Source of the DNA: Sphaerochaetaceae bacterium
GTDB taxonomy: Bacteria; Spirochaetota; Spirochaetia; Sphaerochaetales; Sphaerochaetaceae
Direction: 5' to 3'
Assembly (NCBI GenBank): GCA_028532915.1
Contig: JAQQAI010000006.1
Span: 1-64,000, forward strand
Length of the DNA: 64,000 bases
A program made the position numbers and the translations under genes. Below are positions 13,351 through 47,884 of the stretch, piece by piece. The notes under the pieces are model-generated. The model made no database searches. It was given only the letters and a program-made list of their open reading frames with translations, and was not told where the DNA came from. Every line of letters begins with the position of its first letter. Positions within the stretch are counted from its first letter, which is position 1.

Positions 13351-14646
13351 ATGCAGGTATTGCTGTTATCAGGGGGATCGGGAAAACGTCTTTGGCCGCT
13401 TTCGAACGAAGTGAGGTCTAAACAGTTCCTTCAGGTGCTGAAAAGTCCTTCAGGAGAGAGTGAATCGATGGTGCAGAGAGTGTACCGTCAAATACGGGAG
13501 GCGGGAATCACAAGTGAGCTCACCATTGCGAGCAACCGGGGACAGAAGGAAAGTCTTCAGATGCAGCTGGGCTCTTCGGTCAACCTCGTACTCGAACCCG
13601 AAAGGAGAGATACCTTTCCTGCGATCGCGCTTGCATGTACCTTTCTTCATCTAAAGAAGAATGTTCCTCTCGACGAGGTGGTGGTGGTCCTTCCCGTTGA
13701 TGTGTATGCGGATTTAGACTATTTCAAGACTCTTATAGAGATGGAGAAGGTGATACTGAACGGGGAAGCTGATATGGCTCTGATGGGAATCACTCCTGAT
13801 TCTCCGTCGGAAAAGTACGGATATATCCTTCCCGAAGAGAATATTCGGGAGAATGTGATACGTGTGAAAGGTTTCAGCGAGAAACCGGATACTGCCCGTG
13901 CCCAAATGCTTGTCGATGAAGGTGCCTTCTGGAACGGGGGTGTGTTCGCATTCTCTCTCGGTTATCTTCTCAAAGATGAGAAGTTCCTGAGCCGCTGCGA
14001 CTCATTTGAGCAGAGACTCGAAGACTACGGGCAGCTGAAGAAGACGAGTTTCGACTATGAGGTCGTCGAGCAGTGTGATTCTCTGGCGATGGTTCCCTAC
14101 AGCGGACAGTGGAAGGATCTCGGTTCATGGAATGTTCTCACTTCAGTTATCGAAAATTCTCCGTCCGACACTATCCTCATCGAGGAAGATTTCGGAAATA
14201 CCCATATCATCAATGAACTGGACATCCCAGTTCTCGCTCTGGGAACGAAGAATATGATAATCTGTTCCAGCTTCGACGGGATTCTGGTTGCCGATCTGGA
14301 TCACTGCAGCAATCTGAAAGAACATGCACAGAAGCTGACCGCGAAACCCCGCAGGGAACAGTTTCTGTGGGGGAGCTCGCACATTGTCGATATCACAAGA
14401 CTTCCTGACGGTACAGAAGCTCCACTGCATCGGATCGTTGTCAACGGAGGAATGACCTCTGACGTCCTTTTGGATAATGATTCTTCATCAGTCCTCACGA
14501 TCCTCTTCGGAAACGGCGAGATTTCTATAGATGATGAGAAAAAAGAGATCGAAAGAGGGGATGTCCTGGAAGTTGCTAAAGGTGTCTCATACCGTCTTTC
14601 GGCAGAAAGCGAGATGGTGGTATTGAAATTACCGGTCGTTCCTTAG
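13351..14646 (+). CDS. manC: Mannose-1-phosphate guanylyltransferase (ManC-like)
   Basis: A 431-residue sugar-nucleotide pyrophosphorylase. LLSGGSGKRLWPLS at the N-terminus is the nucleotide-binding signature of the ManC/CpsB family (usual form LSGGSGTRLWPL); SEKYGYI, FSEKPD and FWNGGVFAF follow in order. The last 80 residues form a cupin-like tail (HRIVVNGG ... LFGNGEISIDDEKKEIERGD), but no isomerase activity can be claimed. It should make GDP-mannose or a related GDP-hexose for the polysaccharide made by downstream genes. Its stop overlaps the convergent lipoprotein stop by 4 nt. Confidence 0.85.
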   Translation: MQVLLLSGGSGKRLWPLSNEVRSKQFLQVLKSPSGESESMVQRVYRQIREAGITSELTIASNRGQKESLQMQLGSSVNLVLEPERRDTFPAIALACTFLHLKKNVPLDEVVVVLPVDVYADLDYFKTLIEMEKVILNGEADMALMGITPDSPSEKYGYILPEENIRENVIRVKGFSEKPDTARAQMLVDEGAFWNGGVFAFSLGYLLKDEKFLSRCDSFEQRLEDYGQLKKTSFDYEVVEQCDSLAMVPYSGQWKDLGSWNVLTSVIENSPSDTILIEEDFGNTHIINELDIPVLALGTKNMIICSSFDGILVADLDHCSNLKEHAQKLTAKPRREQFLWGSSHIVDITRLPDGTEAPLHRIVVNGGMTSDVLLDNDSSSVLTILFGNGEISIDDEKKEIERGDVLEVAKGVSYRLSAESEMVVLKLPVVP

Positions 14647-17975: not shown

Positions 17976-19107
17976 TACGACAGGCGGCTTCTTTGGAGGA
18001 GTCGAACAGAATATCGCTTTAGCTGCACAGGGGCTGACCTCAGAAGGGCATAATTGCTATTTTGTCTGCAGAAACAGATCGATGATCGACCAGGAATCCT
18101 TCGATTCTCTTTTTGTCAAATCCTGGGAACTGTCTTCCACCTCACTGCAGCAGATCGTTTCAGAAGTCGACATCGATGTCTTTTATGTACACAAGTTCGA
18201 ACCGATTGAAGATATCCTTGCAGTAAAAGGTACGAAGAAAATAGTCCGGATGGTTCACGATCATGATATCTACTGTCCGCGAAAACATAAGTACTATGCT
18301 CTTTCACGAAAGATCTGTACCAGAAGATGCGGTCTGATCTGCTATGCTGATCTCGCCTTTCTTGAAAGGAAGGAAGGGAAGTTCAAGTTCGTTTCGATCA
18401 GAAAGAAAATAGAGCAGATGAAGCAGAACTATGAAGTCGATACACTGCTTGTCGGCAGCAATTATATGAAAGAGGAACTCGAAAGAAACGGTTTCGATTC
18501 CCCCAAGATCCATCTGCTTCCCCCCTGTGTCCAGAACTATCCTGAACCGCTGCAGACCTTTCCCTCAGATCCTTCCATACTCTATGTGGGACAGCTGATC
18601 AAAGGTAAAGGTGTCGACATCCTTCTTGAGGCATACCGCCTGCTGATCGAGCGACTGGAATTCTCCATACCTCTTCACATCATCGGAAGGGGAAATGAGG
18701 AAATATCTCTCAGGCAAAAAGCTGAAGAAGCAGGCCTCAACTCATCTGTGACCTTTCACGGATGGGTAGGTCATGATGACCTTGCATCCTACTACGATAA
18801 TGCGTCGATGGTTGTCGTTCCCTCCCGCTGGCCGGAGCCTTTCGGGATGGTAGGTGTGGAGGCAATGCTGAGAGAACGGCCTGTGATAGCAAGCGATGTC
18901 GGAGGTATCAGCGACTGGCTGAAAGAAGGAGAGAACGGACTCTTATTCCCTGCAAATGATGCAAAAGCGCTCTCCTATTCGATGTTTTCTCTCATCGTCG
19001 ACAGGGATAATGCGAAAAAAATGGGGAAAACAGGTAAAAAATTGGCTGAAGACTTGTTTTCCTATGAGAAATATATTCATAATTTAGAGTATCAATTGGA
19101 GAGGTGA
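17956..19107 (+). CDS. Glycosyltransferase family 4
   Basis: A 383-residue GT-B enzyme starting at MNILFINTTGGFFGGVEQ (ATG 17956, AGAGGG just upstream), overlapping the previous gene by 20 nt. A central Cys-rich insert (YCPRKHKYYALSRKICTRRC) is seen in GT4 relatives that follow a VHDHDIYC motif. The donor-binding half holds LYVGQLIKGKGVDILLEAY and WPEPFGMVGVEAMLRERPVI (E-x7-E). Acceptor and donor sugars cannot be told from sequence. Confidence 0.85.
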   Translation: MNILFINTTGGFFGGVEQNIALAAQGLTSEGHNCYFVCRNRSMIDQESFDSLFVKSWELSSTSLQQIVSEVDIDVFYVHKFEPIEDILAVKGTKKIVRMVHDHDIYCPRKHKYYALSRKICTRRCGLICYADLAFLERKEGKFKFVSIRKKIEQMKQNYEVDTLLVGSNYMKEELERNGFDSPKIHLLPPCVQNYPEPLQTFPSDPSILYVGQLIKGKGVDILLEAYRLLIERLEFSIPLHIIGRGNEEISLRQKAEEAGLNSSVTFHGWVGHDDLASYYDNASMVVVPSRWPEPFGMVGVEAMLRERPVIASDVGGISDWLKEGENGLLFPANDAKALSYSMFSLIVDRDNAKKMGKTGKKLAEDLFSYEKYIHNLEYQLER

Positions 19108-19109
19108 TT

Positions 19110-20273
19110 ATGATAAGAGTTGGGTGTCCCAGTTTCGGAACAGATTGCGGCCGATCCGGTATAGGGTCTTATTTCAGAGAATTGCTGGACCGTTTCGATG
19201 ATGATGCGCTTCGTGATGAATTCTCATTCGAACTGATAGGACCTGCCGAGGATAGAGACTACTACCTGAAAGGGAAGAAGAACATCCTCTATTATCAGGT
19301 GGAAGGTGCTGATAACTCTCCTATGCAGAACTTCTTCTGGAATCAGTTTTCTCTGCCGAAGATCTGCAGAGAAAGAGGCTATGATCTGCTTTTCCTTCCC
19401 GCCGCGAACCGCAGACTCTGCGGGAAAGTCTCCTGCCCGACAGTCGGTACGGTCCACGACCTGGCCACACTTCATCTGAAAAACAAGTACGATTTCTCCC
19501 ATGCAGTTTTCAACAGAAAGATACTTCCTTATCTGACGAGAAAACTGACTCACGTTCTCACCGTCAGCAATTTTTCCAAACAGGATATCATCCGTTTCGC
19601 GCGTGTGCGTCCCGAAGACATCACAGTCACCCATCTCGGAGTGGACCATACGACCTTCACCCCGCCTGAGGATAAAGGGAAGATCACTTCGTGGGTGAAT
19701 GAGAAATTCGGTATCGATAAACCTTATATACTCTATATCTCCCGTCTCGAACATCCCGGAAAGAACCATGTGAATCTCATCAAAGCCTTCTCTCTTTTCA
19801 GAGACAAAGTCGATAAAGAGTATCAGCTGGTACTTCCCGGTCCGGACAGAGAGCGGGCGGATGAGATCCATGATGAGGCAGAAAAGTCAAAGTACAGCTC
19901 TTCTATCAGGTTTCTGGGCTTCATCGACAAGGAGGATGTCCCGAACCTGTACCGCGGTGCAGAATTATTCGTCCTTCCCTCCTATTTCGAAGGCTTCGGT
20001 CTGCCGGTCCTCGAGGCCATGGCCTGCGGGGCCCCGGTCATCACGTCGGATGCAGCTTCTCTTCCCGAGGTGAGCGGGTCGCTTGCTCCCCATTTCGATC
20101 CCGATTCTCCCGAACAGATGATGACCTCGATGCTTGAAGTGCTGAAAGACGGGGAAAAAAGAGATGAACTTGCACACAAAGGCCTTCAGCGGGCGAAGGA
20201 TTTTACCTGGGAGAAGACGGTTCAGCAGACACTCAATACATTCAGAAAAACAGTTCAGGAGAATAGAAGCTGA
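19110..20273 (+). CDS. Glycosyltransferase family 4
   Basis: A 387-residue GT-B enzyme. ATG 19110 lies 5 nt after GGAGAGG; a GTG six bases earlier is less likely. Motifs: SGIGSYFRELL at the N-terminus, TVGTVHDLATLHLK, HVLTVSNFSKQDI, ILYISRLEHPGKNHVNLIKA and SYFEGFGLPVLEAMACGAPV (E-x7-E). This pattern is close to mannosyl- and rhamnosyltransferases of O-antigen loci, in keeping with a GDP-mannose supply from the ManC-like enzyme. Its TGA overlaps the next ATG. Confidence 0.87.
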   Translation: MIRVGCPSFGTDCGRSGIGSYFRELLDRFDDDALRDEFSFELIGPAEDRDYYLKGKKNILYYQVEGADNSPMQNFFWNQFSLPKICRERGYDLLFLPAANRRLCGKVSCPTVGTVHDLATLHLKNKYDFSHAVFNRKILPYLTRKLTHVLTVSNFSKQDIIRFARVRPEDITVTHLGVDHTTFTPPEDKGKITSWVNEKFGIDKPYILYISRLEHPGKNHVNLIKAFSLFRDKVDKEYQLVLPGPDRERADEIHDEAEKSKYSSSIRFLGFIDKEDVPNLYRGAELFVLPSYFEGFGLPVLEAMACGAPVITSDAASLPEVSGSLAPHFDPDSPEQMMTSMLEVLKDGEKRDELAHKGLQRAKDFTWEKTVQQTLNTFRKTVQENRS

Positions 20274-21535
20274 TGGATACGGGTAAACGTTACGTAATAA
20301 CTATCACAGGACCTGCAGTATCGAGAGACGAGCAGGTGGCGAAATTTCTCGCAAAGCGGCTCAAAGTGGATACCATTCATTCATGCCATTCTCTCTTCCC
20401 TCATGCAGAAACCCTCGAATCGATGCAGAAGATATCTGCACAAGAGATCGGAAAAATACTCGATGGATATCCCTGTGAATATCTTATCATCTACGGTGAC
20501 AATGTGCTTGCACTGCAGAGCATGCGATCTTTGTCGAATGTGAAAATCTATGTTGATGCCGATGATATCGAGATCACATCCTCCGCATTGAAGGAGGCTG
20601 ATCTTGCCGAAAAGAGAGGGGAGGTGAAAAAGGAGACTCTTACGACTCAGGTTCAGAAGATTCTCCAGACTCATTCCGAGAAGATAGAAAATGAAGTTCT
20701 ATCTACCCGCGGGCATGCAGATATCATCATAGCAGCCGATGAAGATCCCGAAGAAGCCGTCCTCAGTGTGGAACGGTATATCGTCAGGACCGACTCGAGG
20801 AAACGGCCTCAGGATATGAGCAGCGAAGAGAGGAAGGCCAGAGTCGACCAGATGCTCAAACAGTATAGAAACCCGGCGGGACAGACCAGAAAAGCGAAGA
20901 TCAAGAGGAAGCTGTGGAGGATGGTCATCAAGGCTACGTTGGTCTTAAAGCGGCTGATCGATATCCTCGTTTCCCTCATCGCTCTGCTTCTGCTCTCTCC
21001 GCTTTTAATCACAGTCTCGCTGATCATCAAACTGACAGACGGAGGGAATATCTTCTATGTCCAGACCAGAATCGGCAAACAGGGAAAACCGTTTCCGTTT
21101 CCAAAATTCCGGTCGATGGTCGTCAATGCCGATAAGATGAAAGACAATCTTCTCAACGAGGCAGACAGAAAGGGGGATGTGACCTTCAAGATGAAAAAGG
21201 ACCCCAGGGTCACTGCTATCGGCCGGTTCATCAGGCGTTTCAGTATCGATGAACTTCCTCAGCTGTGGTGCGTTCTTATCGGTGATATGTCGATAGTGGG
21301 CCCCCGTCCTCCCGTGCCCCGGGAAGTCGCACTCTATACTCAGGAGGACCGGCGGAGGCTGGAGGTAACTCCCGGACTCACCGGTATCTGGCAGGTAAGC
21401 GGAAGATCCGATATCGGATTCAAGCAGCAGGTCGAACTTGATGTCCTGTATATCGAAAGTCACGGGTTCCTTCTCGACCTCAAACTTATACTGAAGACGA
21501 TTCCCGCTGTGCTGACGGGAAAGGGAGCGTATTGA
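20273..21535 (+). CDS. Priming sugar-phosphate transferase fused to a degenerate uridine-kinase-like domain
   Basis: A 420-residue fusion. Residues about 1-175 follow the uridine kinase/PRK fold: YVITITGPAVSRDEQ where the P-loop should be, YLIIYGDNVLAL for the VxxEGxxAL strand, NVKIYVDADD for the FVD(T) strand, and HADIIIA for the terminal YADIII. The Walker A Gly-Lys-Ser is absent, so kinase activity is unlikely. Residues about 210-420 are a complete bacterial sugar transferase (WcaJ/WbaP type): membrane hairpin, RIGKQGKPFPFPKFRSM, FSIDELPQLWCVLIGDMS with the catalytic Asp-Glu, IVGPRPP, VTPGLTGIWQVSGRS. It should transfer a sugar-1-phosphate to undecaprenyl phosphate, starting the repeat unit. 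Confidence 0.9.
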   Translation: MDTGKRYVITITGPAVSRDEQVAKFLAKRLKVDTIHSCHSLFPHAETLESMQKISAQEIGKILDGYPCEYLIIYGDNVLALQSMRSLSNVKIYVDADDIEITSSALKEADLAEKRGEVKKETLTTQVQKILQTHSEKIENEVLSTRGHADIIIAADEDPEEAVLSVERYIVRTDSRKRPQDMSSEERKARVDQMLKQYRNPAGQTRKAKIKRKLWRMVIKATLVLKRLIDILVSLIALLLLSPLLITVSLIIKLTDGGNIFYVQTRIGKQGKPFPFPKFRSMVVNADKMKDNLLNEADRKGDVTFKMKKDPRVTAIGRFIRRFSIDELPQLWCVLIGDMSIVGPRPPVPREVALYTQEDRRRLEVTPGLTGIWQVSGRSDIGFKQQVELDVLYIESHGFLLDLKLILKTIPAVLTGKGAY

Positions 21536-21537
21536 AG

Positions 21538-22299
21538 ATGAGCGATGATATCTTCACTTTCGTCGATATTCCTATCAGAAACGTCACGAAAGAACGGGCG
21601 GTCACCCTGATACAATCTCATCTCGAAGATGACAGGTGCAATGAGATTCACTTCGTGAATGCCCACTGCATCAATGTGGCTGTCAAAGATGATCAATACC
21701 GCTCGATACTTGCAGATGCTGCAGCCGTGTTCCCTGACGGGACAGGGATACGCAAAGCGGGAGATGCTCTCGGTCATCCGATCGTCGACAATGTGAACGG
21801 CACCGATTTGTTCCCCATGATCTGCGATATGTGCAAAAAGAGCGGAAAGACTATCTACCTGCTCGGAGGAAAGCCGTCTATCGCCGGAAAATGTGCGAAA
21901 TGGGTTGAAGACAATATCGGCTCTTCTGTTATCGGCGGCTGTCATGACGGCTATTTTACCGCAGAGGAAGCTGTCGATGTGATTGATGACATCAACGCTG
22001 CATCCTGCGATATCCTTCTGGTAGGAATGGGAGTTCCCTCCCAGGAGAAATGGATACACGAACATCTCGACTCTCTTGAGGTTTCTGTAGCCATGGGAGT
22101 GGGAGGATTGTTCGATTATTATTCGGGTACGATTCCCCGTGCTCCGCTTCTGATGAGAAAGATGGGAATAGAATGGGTATGGAGGCTGATGATGGAACCG
22201 CGCAGGATGTGGAGACGTTACATCATCGGCAATGCGCTGTTTCTCCTGAGGCTCAAACAGATTCAGCGTGAACAGAAAAAGGATAGAACAACAGCATGA
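21538..22299 (+). CDS. WecG/TagA/CpsF family glycosyltransferase (GT26)
   Basis: A 253-residue enzyme of the TagA family, which adds the second sugar to an undecaprenyl-linked first sugar. Typical motifs in order: FVNAHCINVAVKD, AAVFPDGTGI (the conserved PDG.G), VNGTDLFP, YLLGGKPSIA, HDGYF, DILLVGMGVPSQEKWI, MGVGGLFDYYSGTIPRAP and WVWRLMMEPRRMWRRY at the membrane-binding C-terminus. ATG 21538 is used; TTG at 21532 is an alternative with better Shine-Dalgarno spacing. It directly follows the priming transferase, as expected for the second step. Confidence 0.9.
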   Translation: MSDDIFTFVDIPIRNVTKERAVTLIQSHLEDDRCNEIHFVNAHCINVAVKDDQYRSILADAAAVFPDGTGIRKAGDALGHPIVDNVNGTDLFPMICDMCKKSGKTIYLLGGKPSIAGKCAKWVEDNIGSSVIGGCHDGYFTAEEAVDVIDDINAASCDILLVGMGVPSQEKWIHEHLDSLEVSVAMGVGGLFDYYSGTIPRAPLLMRKMGIEWVWRLMMEPRRMWRRYIIGNALFLLRLKQIQREQKKDRTTA

Positions 22300-23684
22300 A
22301 AGCAATATTTGATTTTACCAGGATATCGAAGATCGAGGTGCAGGGGCAGTCTTTCAATCACTCATCCTCCTTTCTTCCGATCATGGGCAAGCCGTTCATT
22401 CAGCATATATTGGAATATGTCGAAAGGCTGGGTATCAGTGAATGGGAGATCTATCTTTCCAATTCGGCTGATGAGGTTGAACAGTTCATCGGTGACGGCG
22501 AAAGGTGGGGAGTGACCCTCTCTTATCACCTTCTGAAAAAAGATGCGATGATAGAATCCAGACTCAGCATGGATTTGAAAGATGATTACAGCGAACCTTT
22601 TCTTTTCTGTAACGAGGAATTCCTTCCGATGATCACAAAGGATCAGCTTTCGAAAGAAGCGAGCTTTCAGAGTGAGACTTCAAAAGAGACTCGATGGCGC
22701 GTAGCGACACTCTCGTCTTTCAGAGAGGAACTTCCTTCAGTACAGGTCGAGACCATTTCGGTTGATTCACCCGAAAGCTATCTGGAAAGTGTCAAGAAAG
22801 TACTGGCAGAGAAAGGAAAAGGTCTGATCGTCTACGGAAAGGAAATCCGTGAAGGAATCTGGGCCGGTCCGGGTTCCCGTATACCCGACACAAGCACCCT
22901 TGTAGCTCCGGTATACCTGGGCTCACAGGTCAGAATCGACAGTCAGTCGATCATCGGTCCCAACGTGGAGATAGGAAGCGGATGCATCATCGGGTCAGAC
23001 AGCTTCATCACCGACTCCTCCATACTGGAAGGAAGCTTTGTGGGAAGCAATCTCGATGTGAACGGCTGTATCGTCAAACAGAATAAGATATTCAACACAC
23101 GGGTCGGGGCAGTATACAGAGCGACAGATGAGATCCTTGTCACTTCCGTCGAGAGCTCCGATAAGATCAGTGATGTAGTTCCGGTATCTCTCCCATCCAG
23201 AATACTCGCCTTTATTCTCATGGTGATCACACTGCCTGTTTTTGCGGTCCTTACACTGTTTACAAAGGTGAAATACCACCGTACCGTTGTTATGATCCCC
23301 CAGCGTGAGACGAAAGTCTCCAAGATGAAGACTCAGGTGATGACGATCTTCAAGCGCAGGTCGGAGACCTCCGGGAGTATGTGGAAACATCTGCTGTGGC
23401 ATCTGATTCCCAATCTGTATCTGGTAGTGGCCAGAGAAGCACGCTTTTTCGGAATTCCCTACAAGACAGTGCAGGAGTATGAAGAGCTTTCTCCCGAGTG
23501 GCAGGAACTCTATCTCCAGTCGATCCCCGGCCTGATCAGCGAAGCAGATATACTCTATGATCAGTATCCGGAAGACCAGCTGCTGTTTGCCAGTGAGATG
23601 TATTATCATGCGATGGATTGCCGATCCTACAATATGTCGCTGTTCAGAAAATATGTCAAACGACTGCTGAACATCCCGTTATAA
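22296..23684 (+). CDS. Pseudo-nucleotidyltransferase / hexapeptide / PGT-like fusion
   Basis: A 462-residue protein in three parts. Residues 1-130 follow the sugar-nucleotidyltransferase fold (FLPIMGKPFIQHILEYVERL, YLSNSADEVEQFIGDG), but the Gly-rich signature is replaced (DFTRISKIEVQGQSF) and the metal Asp strand reads FLFCNEEF. Residues about 190-280 are hexapeptide beta-helix repeats (STLVAPVYLGSQVRIDS, SIIGPNVEIGSGCIIGSD). Residues about 300-462 have a membrane hairpin and then a stretch resembling the end of a sugar-phosphate transferase (LIPNLYLVVAREARFFG, SIPGLISEA) without the DELPQ active site. Both enzymatic parts look inactive; a scaffold or regulatory role beside the true priming enzyme is plausible. 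Its ATG overlaps the previous stop. Confidence 0.75.
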   Translation: MKAIFDFTRISKIEVQGQSFNHSSSFLPIMGKPFIQHILEYVERLGISEWEIYLSNSADEVEQFIGDGERWGVTLSYHLLKKDAMIESRLSMDLKDDYSEPFLFCNEEFLPMITKDQLSKEASFQSETSKETRWRVATLSSFREELPSVQVETISVDSPESYLESVKKVLAEKGKGLIVYGKEIREGIWAGPGSRIPDTSTLVAPVYLGSQVRIDSQSIIGPNVEIGSGCIIGSDSFITDSSILEGSFVGSNLDVNGCIVKQNKIFNTRVGAVYRATDEILVTSVESSDKISDVVPVSLPSRILAFILMVITLPVFAVLTLFTKVKYHRTVVMIPQRETKVSKMKTQVMTIFKRRSETSGSMWKHLLWHLIPNLYLVVAREARFFGIPYKTVQEYEELSPEWQELYLQSIPGLISEADILYDQYPEDQLLFASEMYYHAMDCRSYNMSLFRKYVKRLLNIPL

Positions 23685-23688
23685 CCGG

Positions 23689-24771
23689 TCAGTTGTACAG
23701 CGCCCACTCTTCAAGGAAACGGGCGCTCTTTTCGTTCCACGCCGGATCGGCCGGGTCTGCCCTGTCAAGCAAAAGGGTGAGATCTCTGTAGAGTCTTTCT
23801 CTCGGATACACAAAAGAGAGTTTTTTCCTTCTAATATTTTTCAGCCCGTTTCTGAGAAGATTTTTCGCCGTATGCTGCTGAGGTTCTCTGATGAATGTAT
23901 CTTCAGCATAAGATGCGGCGTCTTTCCAGCTTTTCTTAGTCCTCACAGATTCACAGTGAAGCATCACTGAGATCCATAAAGAGGCGATCTCCTTCAGATC
24001 TTCTGAAGAAGGCTGATCTCTGTGGATACTGTCAGGCTCTGTCTTGAAACGGACAGCCTGAGTATACAAGGCGAGAATTCTGTCTGCGTCGGCAATATCG
24101 AACGACTTTACAGATTCAGTGAGTCTTTCAAGCCTCTGCTCAAGGGGAGGTGTATACAGGCGGTGGGTGATAAGAAGACTGTCTCCCAGAGCAAGAGTGC
24201 ATTTTTCCCGGTTGCGTCTGATGAAATCTTCATCTGGAAGAGTATAGGATGAATCTCCGTCCATCTTCTCACGATGCCCTATTGCCTGAAGCAGCCCGGA
24301 GCCCCTGTTGAGCAGCAGTCTGAGTGCCTCGACACGCGGGAGATCATCCTTCAGATATGAAGGAGCGTGTGCGCTGAGGATATCGGCAGGTCCGGCAAGA
24401 ACTTTATGGGACTGCAGCAGGTCCTGCCACATCAGCTGATGCGGCAGCTTTCTGATTGCGTTGACTGTCAGAGGTTTGCCGATATCGACTTCGATATTCA
24501 GTATATTTTCATATGATCGGGTGACTTCCATTACCTTGTCACTCAGCGTGTAATTATCTTTGACAACAAGAAAAAGATCGAAATCGTTATAAGGAGATTC
24601 CTTGTTTTCTCTGATGACGCAGGCTCCTTCTCCCCGGCCGTAACCGCCTGCAAGGATGAGTGCGATAAAGGAGTCTCCTACCGCCGACCTTACATCATTG
24701 GCTAGATCGGTCAGTACCGAGTCAAGGTATGCGTTGAACTGCTGAGAACCTGCTTTACTGTAGATGACCAC
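23689..24771 (-). CDS. Nucleotidyltransferase-fold protein (Pol-beta type)
   Basis: A 360-residue protein with GTG start (GGAG 7 nt upstream), overlapping the end of the GT2 gene by 17 nt. LILAGGYGRGEGACV near residue 40 and YNDFDLFLVV near residue 62 are the GG-S-like and DxD motifs of minimal/Pol-beta nucleotidyltransferases; a third carboxylate may be EVDIG near residue 93. The rest is helical and basic and matches no family I know. It could transfer a nucleotidyl group to a sugar or protein in the polysaccharide pathway. The fold is fairly sure, the substrate unknown. Confidence 0.7.
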   Translation of the reverse strand: MVIYSKAGSQQFNAYLDSVLTDLANDVRSAVGDSFIALILAGGYGRGEGACVIRENKESPYNDFDLFLVVKDNYTLSDKVMEVTRSYENILNIEVDIGKPLTVNAIRKLPHQLMWQDLLQSHKVLAGPADILSAHAPSYLKDDLPRVEALRLLLNRGSGLLQAIGHREKMDGDSSYTLPDEDFIRRNREKCTLALGDSLLITHRLYTPPLEQRLERLTESVKSFDIADADRILALYTQAVRFKTEPDSIHRDQPSSEDLKEIASLWISVMLHCESVRTKKSWKDAASYAEDTFIREPQQHTAKNLLRNGLKNIRRKKLSFVYPRERLYRDLTLLLDRADPADPAWNEKSARFLEEWALYN

Positions 24772-25636
24772 TTTCGAGCTCCTTCAATCCTTCGAGAAAA
24801 CCTTTCCGTCTGCCCTGAAGCTGGGCGAAACGGAGGATCGGCGAATAGAAAAACGCCCCTATCTTTTTTCTTGACAGACAGTAGCTCCAGTCGCTTTTCA
24901 CCTGTCTCAGATAGGGGAGGAATGAATAGCGAAGAAATGAACGTTCCCATGATGACCATTCAAAGATCTGGGCATCGGCCTTTCCTTCACCTCTCTGACG
25001 TTTTCTGAACTGTGAATAGGTATAATTATGAGAATGATAAACTTTCGAATCTTTGCGGTAAGCGATTGTCCATCCGCGCTGGCGCGCCTTCCATGTCCAG
25101 TCTATATCTTCGGAATAACTGATCGTCTCGCTGAAAGGTTCTTCATTCCAGCATTCGCGTCGTATCGCTGAAGAGGCCATCGAGAAACAGTGCTTCCAAT
25201 ATTTCTGTCTCGACCCGTCGCCGAATGTATCCTCTGTATCTTTGGCGAACAGGGGCATGCAGTCAGGTCTGGGGACCTGCCTCGAAAAGACCGCGCCGAC
25301 TGACGGATCATCGAAACCTTCGATCAGATTCTGCAGCCAGAACTCGTCTAACGGAGTGCAGTCGGAGTTGAGAAAGACGACAAAAGGGGCTCTCGGGTCG
25401 ACTGTTCTCATCGCTTCATTCAAGACCTTTCCGGGAACATAGGTCCCTTTTGGTACATTGTGGATATGACCGGTGAAAGATGGAAGGATCTGGTCTGTAC
25501 CATCTTCCGAATCGTTGTCAAAGACGTACAGCTCGAAAGGGATCGACTGTTCACTCACTTTCTCGAGCGTCTGTCTGATCAGATGGGCATCATTGTACGA
25601 TCTCATCACGATCGGGACAGGGATCATCTCATGCAT
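24755..25636 (-). CDS. Glycosyltransferase family 2
   Basis: A 293-residue GT-A enzyme, rhamnosyltransferase-like. Motifs: IPVPIVMRSYND at the N-terminus, YVFDNDSEDGT, VVFLNSDCTPL (the metal-binding NSD in place of DxD) and ISYSEDIDWTWKARQRGW (catalytic ED). AGGAG precedes ATG 25636. The start overlaps the end of the phosphodiesterase-family gene by 13 nt, so these minus-strand genes form one operon. It likely adds one sugar to the repeat unit or a side chain. Confidence 0.87.
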   Translation of the reverse strand: MHEMIPVPIVMRSYNDAHLIRQTLEKVSEQSIPFELYVFDNDSEDGTDQILPSFTGHIHNVPKGTYVPGKVLNEAMRTVDPRAPFVVFLNSDCTPLDEFWLQNLIEGFDDPSVGAVFSRQVPRPDCMPLFAKDTEDTFGDGSRQKYWKHCFSMASSAIRRECWNEEPFSETISYSEDIDWTWKARQRGWTIAYRKDSKVYHSHNYTYSQFRKRQRGEGKADAQIFEWSSWERSFLRYSFLPYLRQVKSDWSYCLSRKKIGAFFYSPILRFAQLQGRRKGFLEGLKELESGHLQ

Positions 25637-26796
25637 CTGTCTATCTCCTGTTTGAACAGCGAATACAGATCTTCGAGTCCGCGGGGGTAGGTGTCAAGCT
25701 CTACATTGCTGGCGAAGGCCGCGGTGGAATCCTTGTCATCGGGAGAGTATCCGTGCATGCCCGCGATCGTTCTTTCTCCCATATGGCTGGGGACGATGAG
25801 TACTCCCGGGTTCATGAGAAAGAAGAGGTCTCCGAATCGTTTATCGGGGAAATCGACACCCCATTTCTCCAAAGTAGAGTCAGAAAGAATCTGTCCTTCG
25901 TTCACGTTCTCGAGTACCTGACGGATGATCTTTTCGCTATCATCGGAGAGGAACCAGAAACGGGCCATCGTAGAATCATAGACTGCAGCATAATCAGTGC
26001 CGAATTTTAACGGGGTCTGTTCTATGAGCTTCATCAGATTGAAATCTGTGTGAACATCTGTCATTCCGTGGTCGCTGAAGATGAACAGTCTCACCTCTTT
26101 GTAGTGTTCCTGAGCTTTTGACAAAAGCTGGCGTATCTGAGTCTCATACCAGGCCATCTTCTTGTCGACTTCAGGATGATCCTTTCCGTACTGATGGAGG
26201 ATCGCATCCATTGAGGCCATATAGAGGTAGGCGAACGTGATGTTCCTGTTCTCATCGCCAAGAGCATCTTTGAGATTTCCCAGATTCTCCTCTTCGCCGG
26301 CTTTCCAGTCGGCCAAAAAGAAATCGACATTATTATCACGTGCATAATCTGTGATCGTAGGAATACCGCTGTTGATACCCCCTTTCTGATACAGATCCTT
26401 CTTCTCGGTATAATCGAACATGTGAAGGAGCTTGAACGGCATGTTGTAGATATTGAAATAGCCTGTGTAATCGAGTCTTCGTCTGATGATCCTGCCGGCG
26501 ATGTTGCGAACTCTGTTTCTGCTTGAAAGGGCTTTCGGAACCAGCCTCATCATCTGGATGAACGGAGAACCTTTGAAGGGAGAGTGTTCAGGGTCATAGG
26601 CGTAGAATGAAAAATGACCGTGGTCTCTCGGAAGAGCACCGGTCAGAATGGTGGGGTCACAGGTGGCACTGTAACCGAAGATAGTTCTCAGATCCTGTTT
26701 GTGGATCAGTTCATCATCCAGAAAAGAATGAGACTGAAGGATCTCCCATCCGAGAGCGTCGATGAATATCGAAAGACTGACCGATTCTTTTTTCAA
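25624..26796 (-). CDS. Type I phosphodiesterase / alkaline-phosphatase superfamily protein
   Basis: A 390-residue cytoplasmic-looking enzyme, TTG start with AGAGG 6 nt upstream. The zinc sites of the superfamily are readable: SIFIDALGWE (Asp), SATCDPTILTGALP (Thr nucleophile), ASMDAILHQYG (Asp and His), FIFSDHGMTDV (Asp-His) and GMHGYSP (His). It fits PF01663-type nucleotide pyrophosphatase/phosphodiesterases. In this operon, next to a GT2 and a nucleotidyltransferase-fold protein, it may add or remove a phospho-substituent, or act on a nucleotide-sugar. The substrate is not deducible. Confidence 0.82.
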   Translation of the reverse strand: MKKESVSLSIFIDALGWEILQSHSFLDDELIHKQDLRTIFGYSATCDPTILTGALPRDHGHFSFYAYDPEHSPFKGSPFIQMMRLVPKALSSRNRVRNIAGRIIRRRLDYTGYFNIYNMPFKLLHMFDYTEKKDLYQKGGINSGIPTITDYARDNNVDFFLADWKAGEEENLGNLKDALGDENRNITFAYLYMASMDAILHQYGKDHPEVDKKMAWYETQIRQLLSKAQEHYKEVRLFIFSDHGMTDVHTDFNLMKLIEQTPLKFGTDYAAVYDSTMARFWFLSDDSEKIIRQVLENVNEGQILSDSTLEKWGVDFPDKRFGDLFFLMNPGVLIVPSHMGERTIAGMHGYSPDDKDSTAAFASNVELDTYPRGLEDLYSLFKQEIDRCMR

Positions 26797-26831: not shown

Positions 26832-27164
26832 TTATTTGCCGAAGGCTGCCAGAGCCTCTTCCTGCGAGTTGAAGACCTCTATCACCTGATGAAGTCTTAC
26901 CAGTTCGAACAGGACTCTTACAGGTTTCGTGATGTTACAGATCTTGAGGTCTCCGTTCTTCTTGCTCAAGATCTTGAGGCAGGAGAGAAAAACCCCGAGA
27001 CCGCTGCTGTCGATGAAGGTGATTCTGTTCAGATCGAGCAGAATGTTCGTTTCGTTCTCGATTTCCTTCTCCAACGCGGCTTTGAATTCTTTAGCGTTCG
27101 CGGCAGTGAGAGTTGTCGATTCCACCTCGATGACTGTTGCTTCATTCTTTTTTGTTATAATCAT
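26832..27164 (-). CDS. STAS-domain anti-sigma-factor antagonist
   Basis: A 110-residue SpoIIAA/RsbV-like protein. ATG 27164 is preceded by AGGAGG; upstream extension adds non-family residues. The phosphorylation motif is ITFIDSSGLGVFLS, with Ser near residue 55. In partner switching such a protein is phosphorylated by an RsbW-type kinase and dephosphorylated by a SpoIIE-type phosphatase; both activities are encoded on one protein at 30757-33321. It lies 35 nt upstream of the phosphodiesterase-family gene on the same strand, so it may be expressed with polysaccharide genes. Confidence 0.92.
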   Translation of the reverse strand: MIITKKNEATVIEVESTTLTAANAKEFKAALEKEIENETNILLDLNRITFIDSSGLGVFLSCLKILSKKNGDLKICNITKPVRVLFELVRLHQVIEVFNSQEEALAAFGK

Positions 27165-27274
27165 CTTTCCTCCTAGAACAAAGGTTATAATTTTTAACAA
27201 CCTGATTTATCATAAACTAAAAACTATTAAAAATATAGCTTGATTAACCGATTTTGTGAATATTGAGGCGATGT

Positions 27275-27289
27275 GCTGATTGCATCAGC
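27275..27289 (+). other. Small hairpin in GH9 leader
   Basis: GCTGAT and ATCAGC form a perfect 6-bp stem with a TGC loop about 40 nt before the GH9 start. It may stabilise the mRNA or block initiation upstream; no regulator is implied. Confidence 0.3.
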
Positions 27290-27327
27290 TGATATTCACC
27301 GTTACGATGGATGAAAGGAGACGACCA

Positions 27328-29535
27328 ATGAGATCCGTAACAAAGAATATCTTTCTGCTAAGCTTTCTGATCATTCTCGGAGGAAGCGGGTGTACTTCGC
27401 AGGGAAATCGGGAAGCAAAGCTCTCGATTTCGACGGCAGCTCCCCACATCCTCATCGTCTCTTTCGATGATGATTTCGGAACAATTGAATTCAGAGATGA
27501 TCCGCTGAGTACTACCACGTCCCAGTGGAGAGTGAACGGTAAGGCCCCGAAAGAAGTATATCACCGAAGCCGGAGTATCGATGAGAAACCGAAGGATTCA
27601 AAAGGGAACTATCCCGTGTCGAGAGGGTACTGGATCTACCTCGTGCTGGATGAAGATCTGGTCGAGGGGAAATCTTATACCATTGAAAGTCCCTTCGGCC
27701 GGGTCAGCTTCATCTTTGACCCGAAGCAGATACTCTGTGAATCCATCAAGGTCAATCAGGTGAGCTATCTGCCATCTTCTTCAGTCCGCTATGCGAATAT
27801 AGGAATCTACATGGGCGATGGAGGATCATACAAATTTGATTCACTGCCGTCCTACCAGGTCCTTGATCTTTCTGACGGTTCTTCAATCTATTCTGCTGTT
27901 GCCGAATACCGGGGAGATGATACGTCAGTCTCCTCAAATCTGGTAAGTTCGGGAGAACATGTCTATCGACTCGATCTGAGTCAGATACCTGAAGGCGGTC
28001 CCTATGCCGTCTATCTTGAAGGAGCCGGAGTCTCCGTTCCCTTTTATATCTCTGACGAGAAAGTTGGAGAGATCGCATCCACCTATGCCCGTTTTCTCTA
28101 TCATCAAAGATGCGGTATGGCACTTGAACAGCCGTATACCGAATTTGAGCGAGAAGCGTGCCATACTCAGGTTGCCGACACGCGAAAAGAGTGGAGTGCG
28201 AACGGATTCATCGAAGCGAGCGGATTTGAACCTGTGATTCATGTGATCGGAGGGTATCATGATGCTGGAGATTTCGACAGGCGTCCTTATCATGCTGTCA
28301 TTCCGATACTCATGCTGAGTTACTTTGAAGCCTTTCCTTCCCATTTTATAGACGGTCAGTACAATATAGCCGAATCGGGCAATACTCTCCCCGATTTCCT
28401 CGATGAAGCTCTGTGGGGGATGCTCTTATGGGAGAATCTGCAGATTCTCGATCCTTCAGATAGTGAATACGGTGCGATCAGGGCGGGGACGGAGACCTCC
28501 CGGCATCCCGAATACGGAAAGACCGGTTCGGCTGATGATCCTCTGATCTACGGTACCTGGGAGGCCACAGGTGAGATCACCGCATTCGGAGCCGGTATGA
28601 TGGCTCATGCGGCAAGAATCCTCTCTTCTTTCGACGGATTCGAGCAGAGAGCAGAAAAGCTGTATCAGAAGGCACTTCTGGCTTATGATGCACTTGATCT
28701 TTTCTATGATGATGTTTCTCAGGAACCAGACAGTGCGATCCTCTATGCATCGCTGCAGATCGCTCTCTCAGCTCCGGTTTTCGAACCGGATAATACTGTC
28801 CTCAAAGAGAAGTTTGAAGAGCTCTTCATCAGTAGTGCGCGGTCTCTTCTCGTGGAAGACGGCTACTGGCCGCAGCAGTACAGACCGGGGAATATCACGG
28901 CGAAGATACAGACGGCCCATTTTATCAGCTTCCTTCTGATGGAAGAGAGTTTCGATGATGAGCTGCAGGAGCAGATACAGAATCTGATTTTCACAAAAGC
29001 GGAGGAAGGGGGCTACATGGGTTTCGATCTTTCGATTCCGTACTATCCCCAGGGGGCGACAAAAGCCTACGGCTGGGGAGCTGCCACAGCCCAGGGCCGC
29101 TATGGTGATGTGATCGCTTTCGCCTATCGTCTTGCAGAAGATGAAAGCGAAAAGGACCGCTATCTCTCCATTCTCTCACAGCTCGGCGATTACGCTCTGG
29201 GACTGAATCCTCTCGGCCAGTCATACGTTACAGGTTTGGGGAGTGTTCAGGTTAACAGTCCGCTTCATCTCGATTCATATGTTGCAAAAGAGGAAGGTTT
29301 GGGAAATATCGCAGGACTGCTCATCTACGGACCGACATCTGAGCGCAGCGGAGCCGAATACCAGAGGGTGATCTCCGACACCCTCTATCCCGAGTGGGAG
29401 CAGCTGCCGCTTCAGCGGCGTTGGGCAGACGGATGGTCGCTTGTGAACAACAATGAATTTACCGTTTGGGAAACGAGTGTTTGGAACCTGTGTCTCTACG
29501 GCGTTCTTTATGATGCAGGATCTGTTGTGCGGTAA
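27328..29535 (+). CDS. GH9 family glycoside hydrolase (endoglucanase-like) lipoprotein
   Basis: A 735-residue lipoprotein; ATG 27328 follows AAAGGAG, and the signal peptide ends at ILGGSGC. Residues about 140-250 form the Ig-like domain (CelD_N type) that precedes many GH9 catalytic domains (SIKVNQVSYLPSSSVRYANI). The catalytic (alpha/alpha)6 domain starts near residue 255: GGYHDAGDFDRRPYH carries the DAGD base, NPLGQSYVTGLG the conserved NxxxxSYVTG, and LVNNNEFTVWET the general-acid Glu. GH9 enzymes cut beta-1,4-glucans and related polymers. In an export locus it probably trims or releases the locus's own polysaccharide at the cell surface. Confidence 0.9.
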   Translation: MRSVTKNIFLLSFLIILGGSGCTSQGNREAKLSISTAAPHILIVSFDDDFGTIEFRDDPLSTTTSQWRVNGKAPKEVYHRSRSIDEKPKDSKGNYPVSRGYWIYLVLDEDLVEGKSYTIESPFGRVSFIFDPKQILCESIKVNQVSYLPSSSVRYANIGIYMGDGGSYKFDSLPSYQVLDLSDGSSIYSAVAEYRGDDTSVSSNLVSSGEHVYRLDLSQIPEGGPYAVYLEGAGVSVPFYISDEKVGEIASTYARFLYHQRCGMALEQPYTEFEREACHTQVADTRKEWSANGFIEASGFEPVIHVIGGYHDAGDFDRRPYHAVIPILMLSYFEAFPSHFIDGQYNIAESGNTLPDFLDEALWGMLLWENLQILDPSDSEYGAIRAGTETSRHPEYGKTGSADDPLIYGTWEATGEITAFGAGMMAHAARILSSFDGFEQRAEKLYQKALLAYDALDLFYDDVSQEPDSAILYASLQIALSAPVFEPDNTVLKEKFEELFISSARSLLVEDGYWPQQYRPGNITAKIQTAHFISFLLMEESFDDELQEQIQNLIFTKAEEGGYMGFDLSIPYYPQGATKAYGWGAATAQGRYGDVIAFAYRLAEDESEKDRYLSILSQLGDYALGLNPLGQSYVTGLGSVQVNSPLHLDSYVAKEEGLGNIAGLLIYGPTSERSGAEYQRVISDTLYPEWEQLPLQRRWADGWSLVNNNEFTVWETSVWNLCLYGVLYDAGSVVR

Positions 29536-29581: not shown

Positions 29582-30763
29582 ATGAAGATTCTAATTATTT
29601 CAAACCTCTATCCTCCTCACGTTCTCGGCGGATACGAGATTCTCTGTGCCCAGGTCGTCGACAATCTCAAAGCCCGCGGTCATCAGGTTCATGTCCTTAC
29701 CAGCGATCACGGCGGCGGCAAAAGTGATCAGGATGTGACAAGGACACTGAAGGTGTATCAGGATTTTGACAAGAGCGCCTCATTTATGAGATCAGCCAGG
29801 ATAAAGACGGCAATTCATAATAAAAAGGAGACATTGAAAATACTCGAGAATAACTCTTTTGACGTCGTCTTCATCTGGAGTCTTCTGCGTCTTACTCCGG
29901 CAAGTGCCCATGTCGTACAGAAGGAGTGCATCCCTGCCGTATACACGTTCAACGATGAAAATATAACGAGCTTCAATTATCATCCGTTCTCTTTTTCTTT
30001 GAAGACGGCAGCCCACTCTCTTTTAGACCGCCTGTTTCCCCTTACTACCGTCAGAAAGCTCGATTTTTCCCGAACTACTTGTATCAGCCGTATTTTAAAG
30101 AATAATCTTCTGGAAAAACACCTTCCGATCAATGAGAGCAAGGTCATCTATCAGGGAATTCCGATTGAGAAGTTCCCGCTTAAAAAAGGGCCTGTGGTCC
30201 TCGGACAGCCTGCGAAGATTCTCTATGTCGGACAGCTTCACCCCTATAAGGGTGTTCACACGATCATTGAAGCTCTCAAGATTCTTGAGAAAAAAGATGG
30301 GATCAAACCTTGTTCTTTGACGATAGTAGGAAAAGGTCCGAAAGAGTATACGCAAAGATTGGAAAAGATGGCCGCCGAAGCCTCTTGTGAAATCAGACTG
30401 GCAGGTCCTGTGCCGCATGATGAACTGCCTTCGCTGTACCGCGGTATGGATATCTTCATCTTCCCCTCGATATGGGAAGAGCCCTTCGGACTGACCCATC
30501 TTGAAGCGATGGCAAGCGGCCTGCCGGTCATCAGCACTGCAAACGGGGGACAAGGGGAGTTTTTGGTGGAAGGCGAGAACGCTCTCACTTTCACTCCCGA
30601 TGATCCGGAAAATCTGTGCAGGCAGCTTGAAAGGCTGCTTACCGATTCCTCTCTATATACAAAACTGGCTGTAAACGGAAGGAAGACTGTGGAGGAGCAT
30701 TTCTATTTCGACCGGTACGTCGATGAACTCGAGGAACTCCTTCTGTCAGCGGTATCTCACTGA
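29582..30763 (+). CDS. Glycosyltransferase family 4
   Basis: A 393-residue GT-B enzyme. MKILIISNLYPPHVLGGYE at the N-terminus is the family start; ATG 29564 would add six residues. Donor-site motifs: ILYVGQLHPYKGVHTIIEAL, VGKGPKE and FPSIWEEPFGLTHLEAMASG (E-x7-E). It is transcribed from its own promoter and convergent with the SpoIIE-type gene (7-nt overlap at the stops). It probably contributes one linkage of the repeat unit. Confidence 0.87.
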   Translation: MKILIISNLYPPHVLGGYEILCAQVVDNLKARGHQVHVLTSDHGGGKSDQDVTRTLKVYQDFDKSASFMRSARIKTAIHNKKETLKILENNSFDVVFIWSLLRLTPASAHVVQKECIPAVYTFNDENITSFNYHPFSFSLKTAAHSLLDRLFPLTTVRKLDFSRTTCISRILKNNLLEKHLPINESKVIYQGIPIEKFPLKKGPVVLGQPAKILYVGQLHPYKGVHTIIEALKILEKKDGIKPCSLTIVGKGPKEYTQRLEKMAAEASCEIRLAGPVPHDELPSLYRGMDIFIFPSIWEEPFGLTHLEAMASGLPVISTANGGQGEFLVEGENALTFTPDDPENLCRQLERLLTDSSLYTKLAVNGRKTVEEHFYFDRYVDELEELLLSAVSH

Positions 30764-33321
30764 TCTGAATCCAGAGTAAGTATTGTCTCATTGATCTTAT
30801 GGATTCTTCTGCGGGAGAAGAAACTTGTCATCGCATAGATGATCTGCAATCCCCGTCCCCTATCATCGGTATTCTCGTTCAGTTCGTCGAAGAAATGATC
30901 CATCTGAGGTTCTTTCTCGGGGGGGTCCCACTCGACCGCGCTGTCACGTATGATGACATTAACCTGTTTGCCGTATCTGATTTCCAATGCGATCTTTTCT
31001 GAATCATTCTTCGGAAGTCCGTGTTCAACGATGTTGTTGAGAAATTCCGTGGCTACAAGACGTGTTTTGAATCCCAATTCATCTGACCCTCCCTGAGAGG
31101 TGATGAACGATTCCACATCCAGGCCGATCTGATCCACCTCGGCAAGCTGCGAATAGATCTCTTTATAGAAACATGAGCACATATTCCTTGAGGGAACAGA
31201 CTGCAGGGCAATGAACGAGAAATCGTCATTACGGTTCGTATACCCGTTCTGATCGATCACATCGTAACAGAGGTGAGGGAGCATCAGACAATCATCGACA
31301 TCGATCGATTTTGTAAGGAGATTCAGCAGCTTTTTCTGTCCGAGCTCTTCTCCTTTATCGTTGAAACACTCGAACACTCCATCGGTTAGAAGACAGATTG
31401 CATCGTCGTTGGAAAAGTGTGTTTCGATCATATCCTTTTCTTCGTAGACGAAATCTTCCACCCATCCGATCGGTATAGACCCTGCAGAGTCAAGCAATTT
31501 AGTCTTTTTTGTTGAAAGGTTGTAGAGGAAAAGAGGGGGATGTCCGGCATTGAAATTCTTCAAAGTCATCGTCTCGAAATCGACCAGACAGTAATTCATC
31601 GTCATATAATTGTCGTTGAAAAGCCGCTTGCTCAATGTCGCATTGATCTGTGTGAGAATTTCCGCGGGAGATTCAGGAACCTGCTCACTTCTGATGAACA
31701 TATTAATGATCGATTTTACTGCAGTCATTGTCAATGCCGCCTGGATCCCGTGTCCCGAGATATCTGCAACATAGAGGATATAGCGGGTGTCGGAAATCCT
31801 GACACAATCGAAAAGATCTCCTCCTATAGTCGACCATGGCGTATAGTTTGCCGAAAAAAGAATCCTGTCATCGACCTGCAACCACGACGGCAGCATATAG
31901 GTCTGAATGGACTGGGCGATCTTCAGATCTTCCATAATCCCTGTATATACGGTACTCAGTTCATCTGCTGCCAGCTTTCGTTCAATACTGTCGCTAATCG
32001 ATATGGCATAGAGTTTTAGAAGGTCACACTCGACAGACGACCACACATATTCTGTGACGCAGTTACTTAAAACAAGAAAGCCCCAGAATCTGTGTTTTGC
32101 AAATACAGGAAGAACGAGTATTGCTTTGATACGTTTCTCTTCCAGATGAGCTCTTAAGGGACCTTTTTCCATCCGGGATGTGATGACCTGAAACAGTTCA
32201 TTTCTTTTCAAGATATCAAGGATAAGGGTCGTTTCCACGGAAGGAAGCTTGAACGTATCTTCTGATTCCCGGAAACTTTCATCGTCATCATCCTCACCTT
32301 TCGTCTGTCTGACGACTTTCACAATAGTGCCGTCGGTATCGTAGATGTTCTTGAAGTAATTGATTCTGTCAATTCCTGTCGCTTCCTGCACGAAGAGGTT
32401 GAGCGACTTGGGAAGAGAGATCGAAAAATCGGGTGATTTGATCAGTTCCTGAGTTGCCAGCGTGATGGCATTGGACAGATGGTCGCGGAGCTGAAGGTCT
32501 TTTTCCAGCTTGACCCGCTGGGTGATATCGATCGCTATTCCCCGAAAGCCGGTGAATGCACTTCCGTTTCGGATGGGAGAGAGAGTGAGGTTGACCATGA
32601 AGGTCTGATCACGGCTGTTTTTCATCCAGAAATCGCCGCTGGTCATAGTCTCACCCATCTCGCAGTTATGGAGGAGCTCGAGGACATTATTTTTTGATGA
32701 CTCGGGAAAGAAATCAAAGATAGATTTCGGTCTGAACTCATCGGAATCGATCTGCTTGAATATCTCCTGAGTTCTCTTGTTGACGTACGTTACCTGGTAG
32801 GAAGTGTCGAGTTCTATGATGAGTCCGGGAAGCATGTTTGCCATGTCCATGAACTGCTTGCTGCTTTTTTTCAGTTCAGTGTTCTGCAGACAGGCTTTGC
32901 ATGCAGTTCCAAGTTTATGGTTTATCGGCCGAAGTGCGCCCAGAAGAGGGGTGTCAATCCTCCCGTTGCTTTTGAACAGAACAAGAAGTCCGATATCCGA
33001 GATGCTCATCACATAGTAAATCCCTTCCTCTTCATCAATTTCATGAGTGATGATATCGTCGGAGAAATCATGGTGCAGCAGTCTGTTCCGCAATGCTTTG
33101 AACGAAGGTTGTGCTTCAATATTTCTGGGGATGGAGAATGCATTGGAGAGGGCGAACGTAGACGAGTCTGTTCTATCTACCAGAAGAACGGCCCCCATCG
33201 AGCATTCGAGTTCTCCGATATACAGAGCGAGTGACCTGCCCAGCATCTTTTTCAGATCAAGCGATTCACCGATCGGGAGGAGGATCTTGTAACAAATCTG
33301 GTCGATGTTCTGGTTGTTCAT
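30757..33321 (-). CDS. GAF/PAS/GAF-SpoIIE phosphatase-RsbW-like kinase switch protein
   Basis: An 854-residue soluble regulator. An N-terminal GAF-like region is followed by PAS (about 160-270: MANMLPGLIIELDTSYQVTY) and a second GAF-like region (about 290-450). The PP2C/SpoIIE phosphatase (about 470-690) has GGDLFD, VADISGHGIQAAL, CLLTDGVFE and NDDFSFIAL. The C-terminal GHKL kinase of RsbW type (about 715-854) has ATEFLNNIVEHGL (N box), IIRDSAVEWDPPE and DRGRGLQII. The substrate should be a STAS protein such as that at 26832-27164. ATG 33321 has GGAGA 9 nt upstream. It is the last gene of the wzy-wzx-wzc operon. Confidence 0.9.
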   Translation of the reverse strand: MNNQNIDQICYKILLPIGESLDLKKMLGRSLALYIGELECSMGAVLLVDRTDSSTFALSNAFSIPRNIEAQPSFKALRNRLLHHDFSDDIITHEIDEEEGIYYVMSISDIGLLVLFKSNGRIDTPLLGALRPINHKLGTACKACLQNTELKKSSKQFMDMANMLPGLIIELDTSYQVTYVNKRTQEIFKQIDSDEFRPKSIFDFFPESSKNNVLELLHNCEMGETMTSGDFWMKNSRDQTFMVNLTLSPIRNGSAFTGFRGIAIDITQRVKLEKDLQLRDHLSNAITLATQELIKSPDFSISLPKSLNLFVQEATGIDRINYFKNIYDTDGTIVKVVRQTKGEDDDDESFRESEDTFKLPSVETTLILDILKRNELFQVITSRMEKGPLRAHLEEKRIKAILVLPVFAKHRFWGFLVLSNCVTEYVWSSVECDLLKLYAISISDSIERKLAADELSTVYTGIMEDLKIAQSIQTYMLPSWLQVDDRILFSANYTPWSTIGGDLFDCVRISDTRYILYVADISGHGIQAALTMTAVKSIINMFIRSEQVPESPAEILTQINATLSKRLFNDNYMTMNYCLVDFETMTLKNFNAGHPPLFLYNLSTKKTKLLDSAGSIPIGWVEDFVYEEKDMIETHFSNDDAICLLTDGVFECFNDKGEELGQKKLLNLLTKSIDVDDCLMLPHLCYDVIDQNGYTNRNDDFSFIALQSVPSRNMCSCFYKEIYSQLAEVDQIGLDVESFITSQGGSDELGFKTRLVATEFLNNIVEHGLPKNDSEKIALEIRYGKQVNVIIRDSAVEWDPPEKEPQMDHFFDELNENTDDRGRGLQIIYAMTSFFSRRRIHKINETILTLDSDQ

Positions 33322-33337
33322 GTTCTGCGTTCTCCAT

Positions 33338-47867: not shown

Positions 47868-47884
47868 TATTTCAGGAGGAAAAA

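Follow-up and report, generated by a model that had tools for sequence, protein, structure and literature searches.

The enzyme predicted to start exopolysaccharide synthesis in a member of the Sphaerochaetaceae carries, in front of an intact small monotopic phosphoglycosyl transferase (PGT), a domain derived from uridine kinase (URK) in which the catalytic and ligand-binding residues of that family have been lost. The gene lies in the 64,000-nucleotide stretch of DNA that was analysed (the window), and its coordinates are given in Table 1 together with those of its neighbours. The open reading frame begins with ATG, overlaps the stop codon of the upstream GT4 gene by one base and is still open in homologues from about 15 other Spirochaetia genomes; the closest named relatives of the window genome are Sphaerochaetaceae and Sphaerochaeta assemblies. 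An initial annotation, made from the letters of the DNA, had proposed this reading frame with a transferase in its C-terminal half, and the open homologues and the PF02397 match confirm that it is real. Its central proposal, that a priming transferase is joined to a dead domain of uridine-kinase descent, is supported by profile, fold and residue-loss evidence.

Table 1. Features of the fusion gene and its surroundings (positions in the window).
Feature	Position	Strand	Basis
NDP-sugar synthesis	13351-14646		
Upstream GT4 glycosyltransferase	19104..20273	+	Pfam; neighbour conserved at the homologous loci inspected
Fusion protein, pseudo-uridine-kinase domain plus small monotopic PGT, 420 aa	20273..21535	+	ORF, Pfam/NCBIfam
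Pseudo-uridine-kinase domain (N-domain), residues 1-174	20273..20794	+	Profile against PDB and genomes, Foldseek, VIA-align, hhalign, TIGR00235
Former P-loop site at residues 13-20 (GPAVSRDE), without the Lys and Ser/Thr of Walker A; GPxxxR new	20309..20332	+	Mapping over 18 homologues
Kept URK strand Ala-Asp-Ile (A149 D150 I151)	20717..20725	+	A and D invariant in homologues
Linker/amphipathic helices, residues ~175-220	20795..20932	+	Start of relatives' matches (residue ~171-215)
Monotopic PGT catalytic domain, residues ~221-420	20933..21532	+	PF02397, invariant motifs
DELPQ motif, residues 326-330, intact	21248..21262	+	Motif conservation
Downstream WecG/TagA/CpsF glycosyltransferase	21532..22299	+	Pfam/NCBIfam; neighbour conserved
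Constant partner: degenerate nucleotidyltransferase, left-handed beta-helix, probable pseudo-PGT	22296..23684	+	Profile searches, co-occurrence
Wzc-like chain-length/tyrosine-kinase protein	33338-35593		
Wzx-like flippase	35597-37126		
Wzy-like polymerase	37132-38460		
Wzi-like proteins	46281-49594		

The C-terminal half matched Bac_transf (PF02397) over residues 226–414 with an E-value of 1.4e-65 and 220.7 bits, against a curated cut-off of 27, and this was the only PF02397 match found in the window genome, which is estimated to be 97% complete. DELPQ corresponds to the Asp-Glu dyad that monotopic PGTs are expected to use in catalysis; this motif and GPRPP (residues 343–347) are invariant across the fusion family, so that both the dyad and the GPRP motif are present. 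The predicted activity is the transfer of a sugar 1-phosphate to undecaprenyl phosphate. The best NCBIfam scores were obtained with PGTs of the EPS/WbaP/WcaJ type, but the catalytic part alone was aligned; the small-PGT model NF052601 (244 aa) matched residues 185–417. No match to PF13727 was found in the fusion protein using Pfam, and the four-helix bundle is likewise absent. Hence, the transferase, initially described as intact and of the WcaJ/WbaP type, is indeed intact as judged by PF02397 and DELPQ, but does not have the WcaJ/WbaP architecture. The nearest relatives outside the spirochaetes (Acidobacteriota, Planctomycetota, Desulfobacterota and others) were mostly small PGTs of about 235–265 aa, the match starting mostly at residue ~171–215 and a short helix preceding the membrane segment. 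This indicates that residues ~175–220 belong to the transferase itself and that residues 1–174 were added. Since the linker helices also occur in small PGTs devoid of the N-domain, the linker is ancestral to the transferase. Small monotopic PGTs (PglC-like or RfbP-like) therefore have the same PGT core and N-terminal amphipathic linker as the fusion, which differs from them by its extra 174-residue pseudo-kinase domain. In the PGT tree the 18 fusions clustered beside small PGTs, the divergent protein of genome G301 forming a long branch of unsure placement. On these sequences the fusion is restricted to the Spirochaetia and seems to have arisen once, when a domain was placed in front of a small PGT. 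AlphaFold modelled the PGT half of the full-length protein poorly (mean pLDDT 60.8, pTM 0.42).

Residues 1–209 alone gave no match in Pfam, and the NCBIfam model TIGR00235 (udk) recognized the window protein on its own with an E-value of 0.0068 (residues 66–164). A profile of six N-domain sequences, searched against six-frame translations of 395 genomes of the class, retrieved fusions in 15 genomes, and its only other matches were four P-loop kinases, namely a short cytidylate kinase and three uridine kinases in which GxxxxGK[ST] is intact. When the profile was extended to 18 sequences and compared with the PDB, URKs came first (3w8r, 8.8e-4; 3asy, 9.5e-4), followed by UCK1 (0.004) and then by UCK2 and phosphoribulokinase; in 393 genomes of the phylum its matches at 4.5e-6 to 0.01 formed a long list, most of the proteins being about 205–270 aa in length and many coinciding in position with uridine-kinase matches. 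Against spirochaete kinases, hhalign gave 96.7% for URK over 153 columns. As candidate parents, dephospho-CoA kinase and two cytidylate-kinase sets gave 0.9, 6.7 and 59.7% and were rejected; the five-member control set of long cytidylate kinases includes one sequence from outside the family (L203). The runner-up was the short cytidylate (CMP) kinase, with the 59.7%, and one N-domain member matched PF13189 at 0.0018. The AlphaFold model of the N-domain, obtained from an 18-row alignment (pLDDT 77, pTM 0.68) and compared by VIA-align, is a soluble alpha/beta fold. With this model, Foldseek placed UCK2 at the top (2.5e-7), the T. thermophilus uridine kinase also being ranked first, and VIA-align aligned 165 residues of UCK2 at 3.0 A with a Z of 15.1 (NRK1, 13.8; dephospho-CoA kinase, 12.7). 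The predicted fold is thus of the PRK/URK type, as the initial annotation had anticipated. Functional URKs (TIGR00235, PF00485; T. thermophilus 3asz, human UCK2 6n54) share this fold and order of elements, and they are the nearest sequence family, with the YVDAD and ADII strands in common. The S. pombe Tad2 N-terminal domain (7eey), which also scored high in Foldseek and VIA-align, is likewise a uridine-kinase-like domain on an unrelated enzyme, but it is fused to a tRNA deaminase instead of a PGT. Because profile, profile-profile and predicted-fold evidence agree, the N-domain is, by these comparisons, a uridine-kinase derivative.

The order of the motifs proposed at the outset was right, GPAVSRDE standing at the position of GxxxxGKS, KIYVDAD at that of the FVD strand and HADIII at that of the YADIII end. 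The strand then called "VxxEG-like" in fact reads YLIIYGDN, which puts a Tyr at the acidic position of hhhEG. The functional positions of URK were mapped onto 18 homologues. None of these carries a Walker A: the lysine was found in 0 of 18, its position being held by D, N, C, S, A, I, T or V, and the catalytic Asp (QDxYY) was equally absent from all. The first Asp of FDxPxAxD and the Tyr/His base and ribose contacts of YDF..H, as well as the LID arginines (R134, R137, R138), were replaced or deleted in 18/18, and the acidic residue of hhhEG was lost in every homologue, nearly always to Tyr. The sole URK residues retained, in all 18, are the Ala-Asp pair of the ADII strand, which are structural. 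A new signature, GPxxxR...Y, occupies the former phosphate site, with the P in most homologues and the R in 14. The N-domain thus differs from a functional URK in each of these sites, besides being joined to a PGT, and kinase activity can be set aside on the basis of its residues.

Conservation within the N-domain is uneven. Mean pairwise identity was highest (0.50) in beta-5 and the C-terminal helix, next to the PGT, and 0.18–0.34 elsewhere, the lowest value (0.18) corresponding to the substrate side, from alpha-1 to beta-3. Among close pairs from several lineages, dN/dS was about 0.08–0.27 for the N-domain versus 0.03–0.08 for the PGT. This indicates that the N-domain is maintained by purifying selection, weaker than that on the PGT. 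In the three fusion copies of genome G105 (L035, L036 and L037) about 35–45 core residues are missing, so that little of the N-domain core remains from alpha-1 to beta-4. Neither the PF00485 matches listed for 297 genomes nor the fusion homologues included an ancestral form in which a PGT is joined to a kinase domain whose Walker A is intact. Genome G301 has a divergent syntenic version of the PGT (L177/L180) and a divergent version of the partner. The N-domain of L177 has no Walker A, and the N-domain of the G301 relative alone gave no kinase match in Pfam or the PDB, so that its link to URK comes from synteny and from one short stretch, ADQPEAFD, similar to FDHPDAFD of URK. The G301 version is possibly an intermediate.

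The fusion gene lies within a Wzx/Wzy-type exopolysaccharide region. Two genes downstream is a partner whose nucleotidyltransferase-like start has no usual LAAGxGTR signature and whose middle part is a hexapeptide left-handed beta-helix. Its C-terminus matched PF02397 in 2 of 8 members (best 2.3e-6), and hhalign aligned it with the PGT weakly but collinearly, the DELPQLW segment of the PGT reading WHLIPNLY, with no DELPQ dyad; a profile of this C-terminus gave no match in the PDB. The partner is therefore a probable second pseudo-enzyme with a degenerate PGT domain. In one sample, the partner and the fusion occurred in the same 9 of 297 class genomes, G105 having three copies of each, although, as both genes belong to one operon, their co-occurrence is partly simple co-inheritance. 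Other genes were observed in the region. A group on the opposite strand encodes a type I phosphodiesterase-like protein (25627-26796, -), a GT2 glycosyltransferase (24758-25636, -) and a 360-aa protein with no Pfam match (23692-24771, -). A protein of glycosyl hydrolase family 9 whose start resembles that of a lipoprotein (27280-29535, +) lies inside the polysaccharide region. Beside the polysaccharide genes, a PAS/GAF-SpoIIE phosphatase with an HATPase domain (30757-33345, -) and a short protein whose sequence resembles STAS anti-sigma antagonists (26832-27200, -) possibly form a partner-switch regulator.

One important question is why selection still acts on a domain devoid of all its catalytic residues. 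This combination suggests that its role is probably to regulate or dock the enzyme, not to serve as a kinase. We give about an even chance to the N-domain being a docking or allosteric module of the PGT, and rank this reading first, because the substrate side is gone, the end facing the PGT is conserved and a second, probable pseudo-enzyme is a constant neighbour. On this reading, an ancestor of some Spirochaetia acquired an in-frame fusion of an ancestral uridine-kinase gene with the beginning of a small monotopic PGT gene. The kinase part then ceased to bind ATP and substrate and to catalyse, but was retained as a cytosolic accessory domain. This module may position or gate the first committed step, in which the sugar 1-phosphate of a UDP-sugar would be placed on undecaprenyl phosphate and UMP released. 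The N-domain would probably touch the PGT through the conserved beta-5/C-terminal helix, and would probably also contact other proteins encoded in the operon, most likely the partner with the degenerate PGT domain. Control at the priming step is plausible in view of two precedents: the DUF accessory domain of WbaP binds UMP, UDP and UTP, and WbaP is inhibited by UMP with an IC50 of 4.1 uM (PMC10942596), and the PGT EpsZ is activated by a partner protein, EpsW (PMC12802240). The large PGTs WbaP, WcaJ and EpsZ belong to the same catalytic family and also have an N-terminal accessory domain, but that of the fusion differs from theirs in fold and origin. It is improbable, though conceivable, that the two dead enzymes, the pseudo-URK on the PGT and the partner, assemble into a hetero-oligomeric priming complex able to monitor the supply of uridine nucleotides or NDP-sugars.

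The initial annotation had suggested nucleotide or UMP sensing that gates the first committed step. In this case the dead kinase fold would bind UMP, UDP, UTP or a UDP-sugar and gate the PGT as a functional analogue of the WbaP DUF. UMP is the product released by the PGT reaction, the isolated WbaP DUF is stabilized by UMP, UDP and UTP, and the mostly conserved GPxxxR at the P-loop, with Tyr in place of the hhhEG acid, gives the impression of a rebuilt site. Conservation, however, lends this reading no support: the URK ligand residues are absent from all 18 homologues, R18 is not universal, and the region on the substrate side is the least conserved and largely deleted in the three G105 copies. 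As those ligand residues are gone, sensing is a possible but doubtful second choice; the WbaP analogy and the new signature make it a rival to docking rather than the lead. Slightly less probable is a plain structural role in the folding, membrane orientation or stability of the small PGT, with no regulatory signal. The N-domain evolves fast, one lineage tolerates the loss of much of its core and the conserved end adjoins the PGT, and therefore a loosely constrained spacer fits too; against it, close relatives from other phyla do without the domain, several lineages keep it under purifying selection and the partner gene is constant. Single sequences do score weakly against kinases, as seen with TIGR00235 and Pfam, but that the N-domain is a functionless relic, or resembles P-loop kinases by chance, is very unlikely, given that all three lines of evidence point to URK and that dN/dS is well below 1 in several lineages. 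The docking or allosteric reading is thus preferred to sensing, and sensing to a structural role.

Fusions to monotopic PGTs are already known as a kind, and small PGTs with regulatory domains are among them, as cited in PMC12802240. No fusion of a URK with a PGT or sugar transferase was found in the literature searched, in line with the initial view that it is undescribed, although it may be mentioned in the main survey of PGT architectures. Within that literature, what is new is an accessory domain of pseudo-URK origin on a monotopic PGT. As an independent, maintained domain of traceable origin on what is apparently the sole PF02397 PGT of its genome, it lends itself to simple truncation and ligand tests. 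If it binds UMP, it would be convergent with the solution proposed for WbaP; if it does not, it would clearly illustrate the conversion of a fold from metabolic kinases to docking or allosteric use. Were the paired complex real, exopolysaccharide initiation would be controlled by two repurposed dead enzymes. In this group of spirochaetes, the enzyme that starts the exopolysaccharide carries a dead, URK-derived front end.
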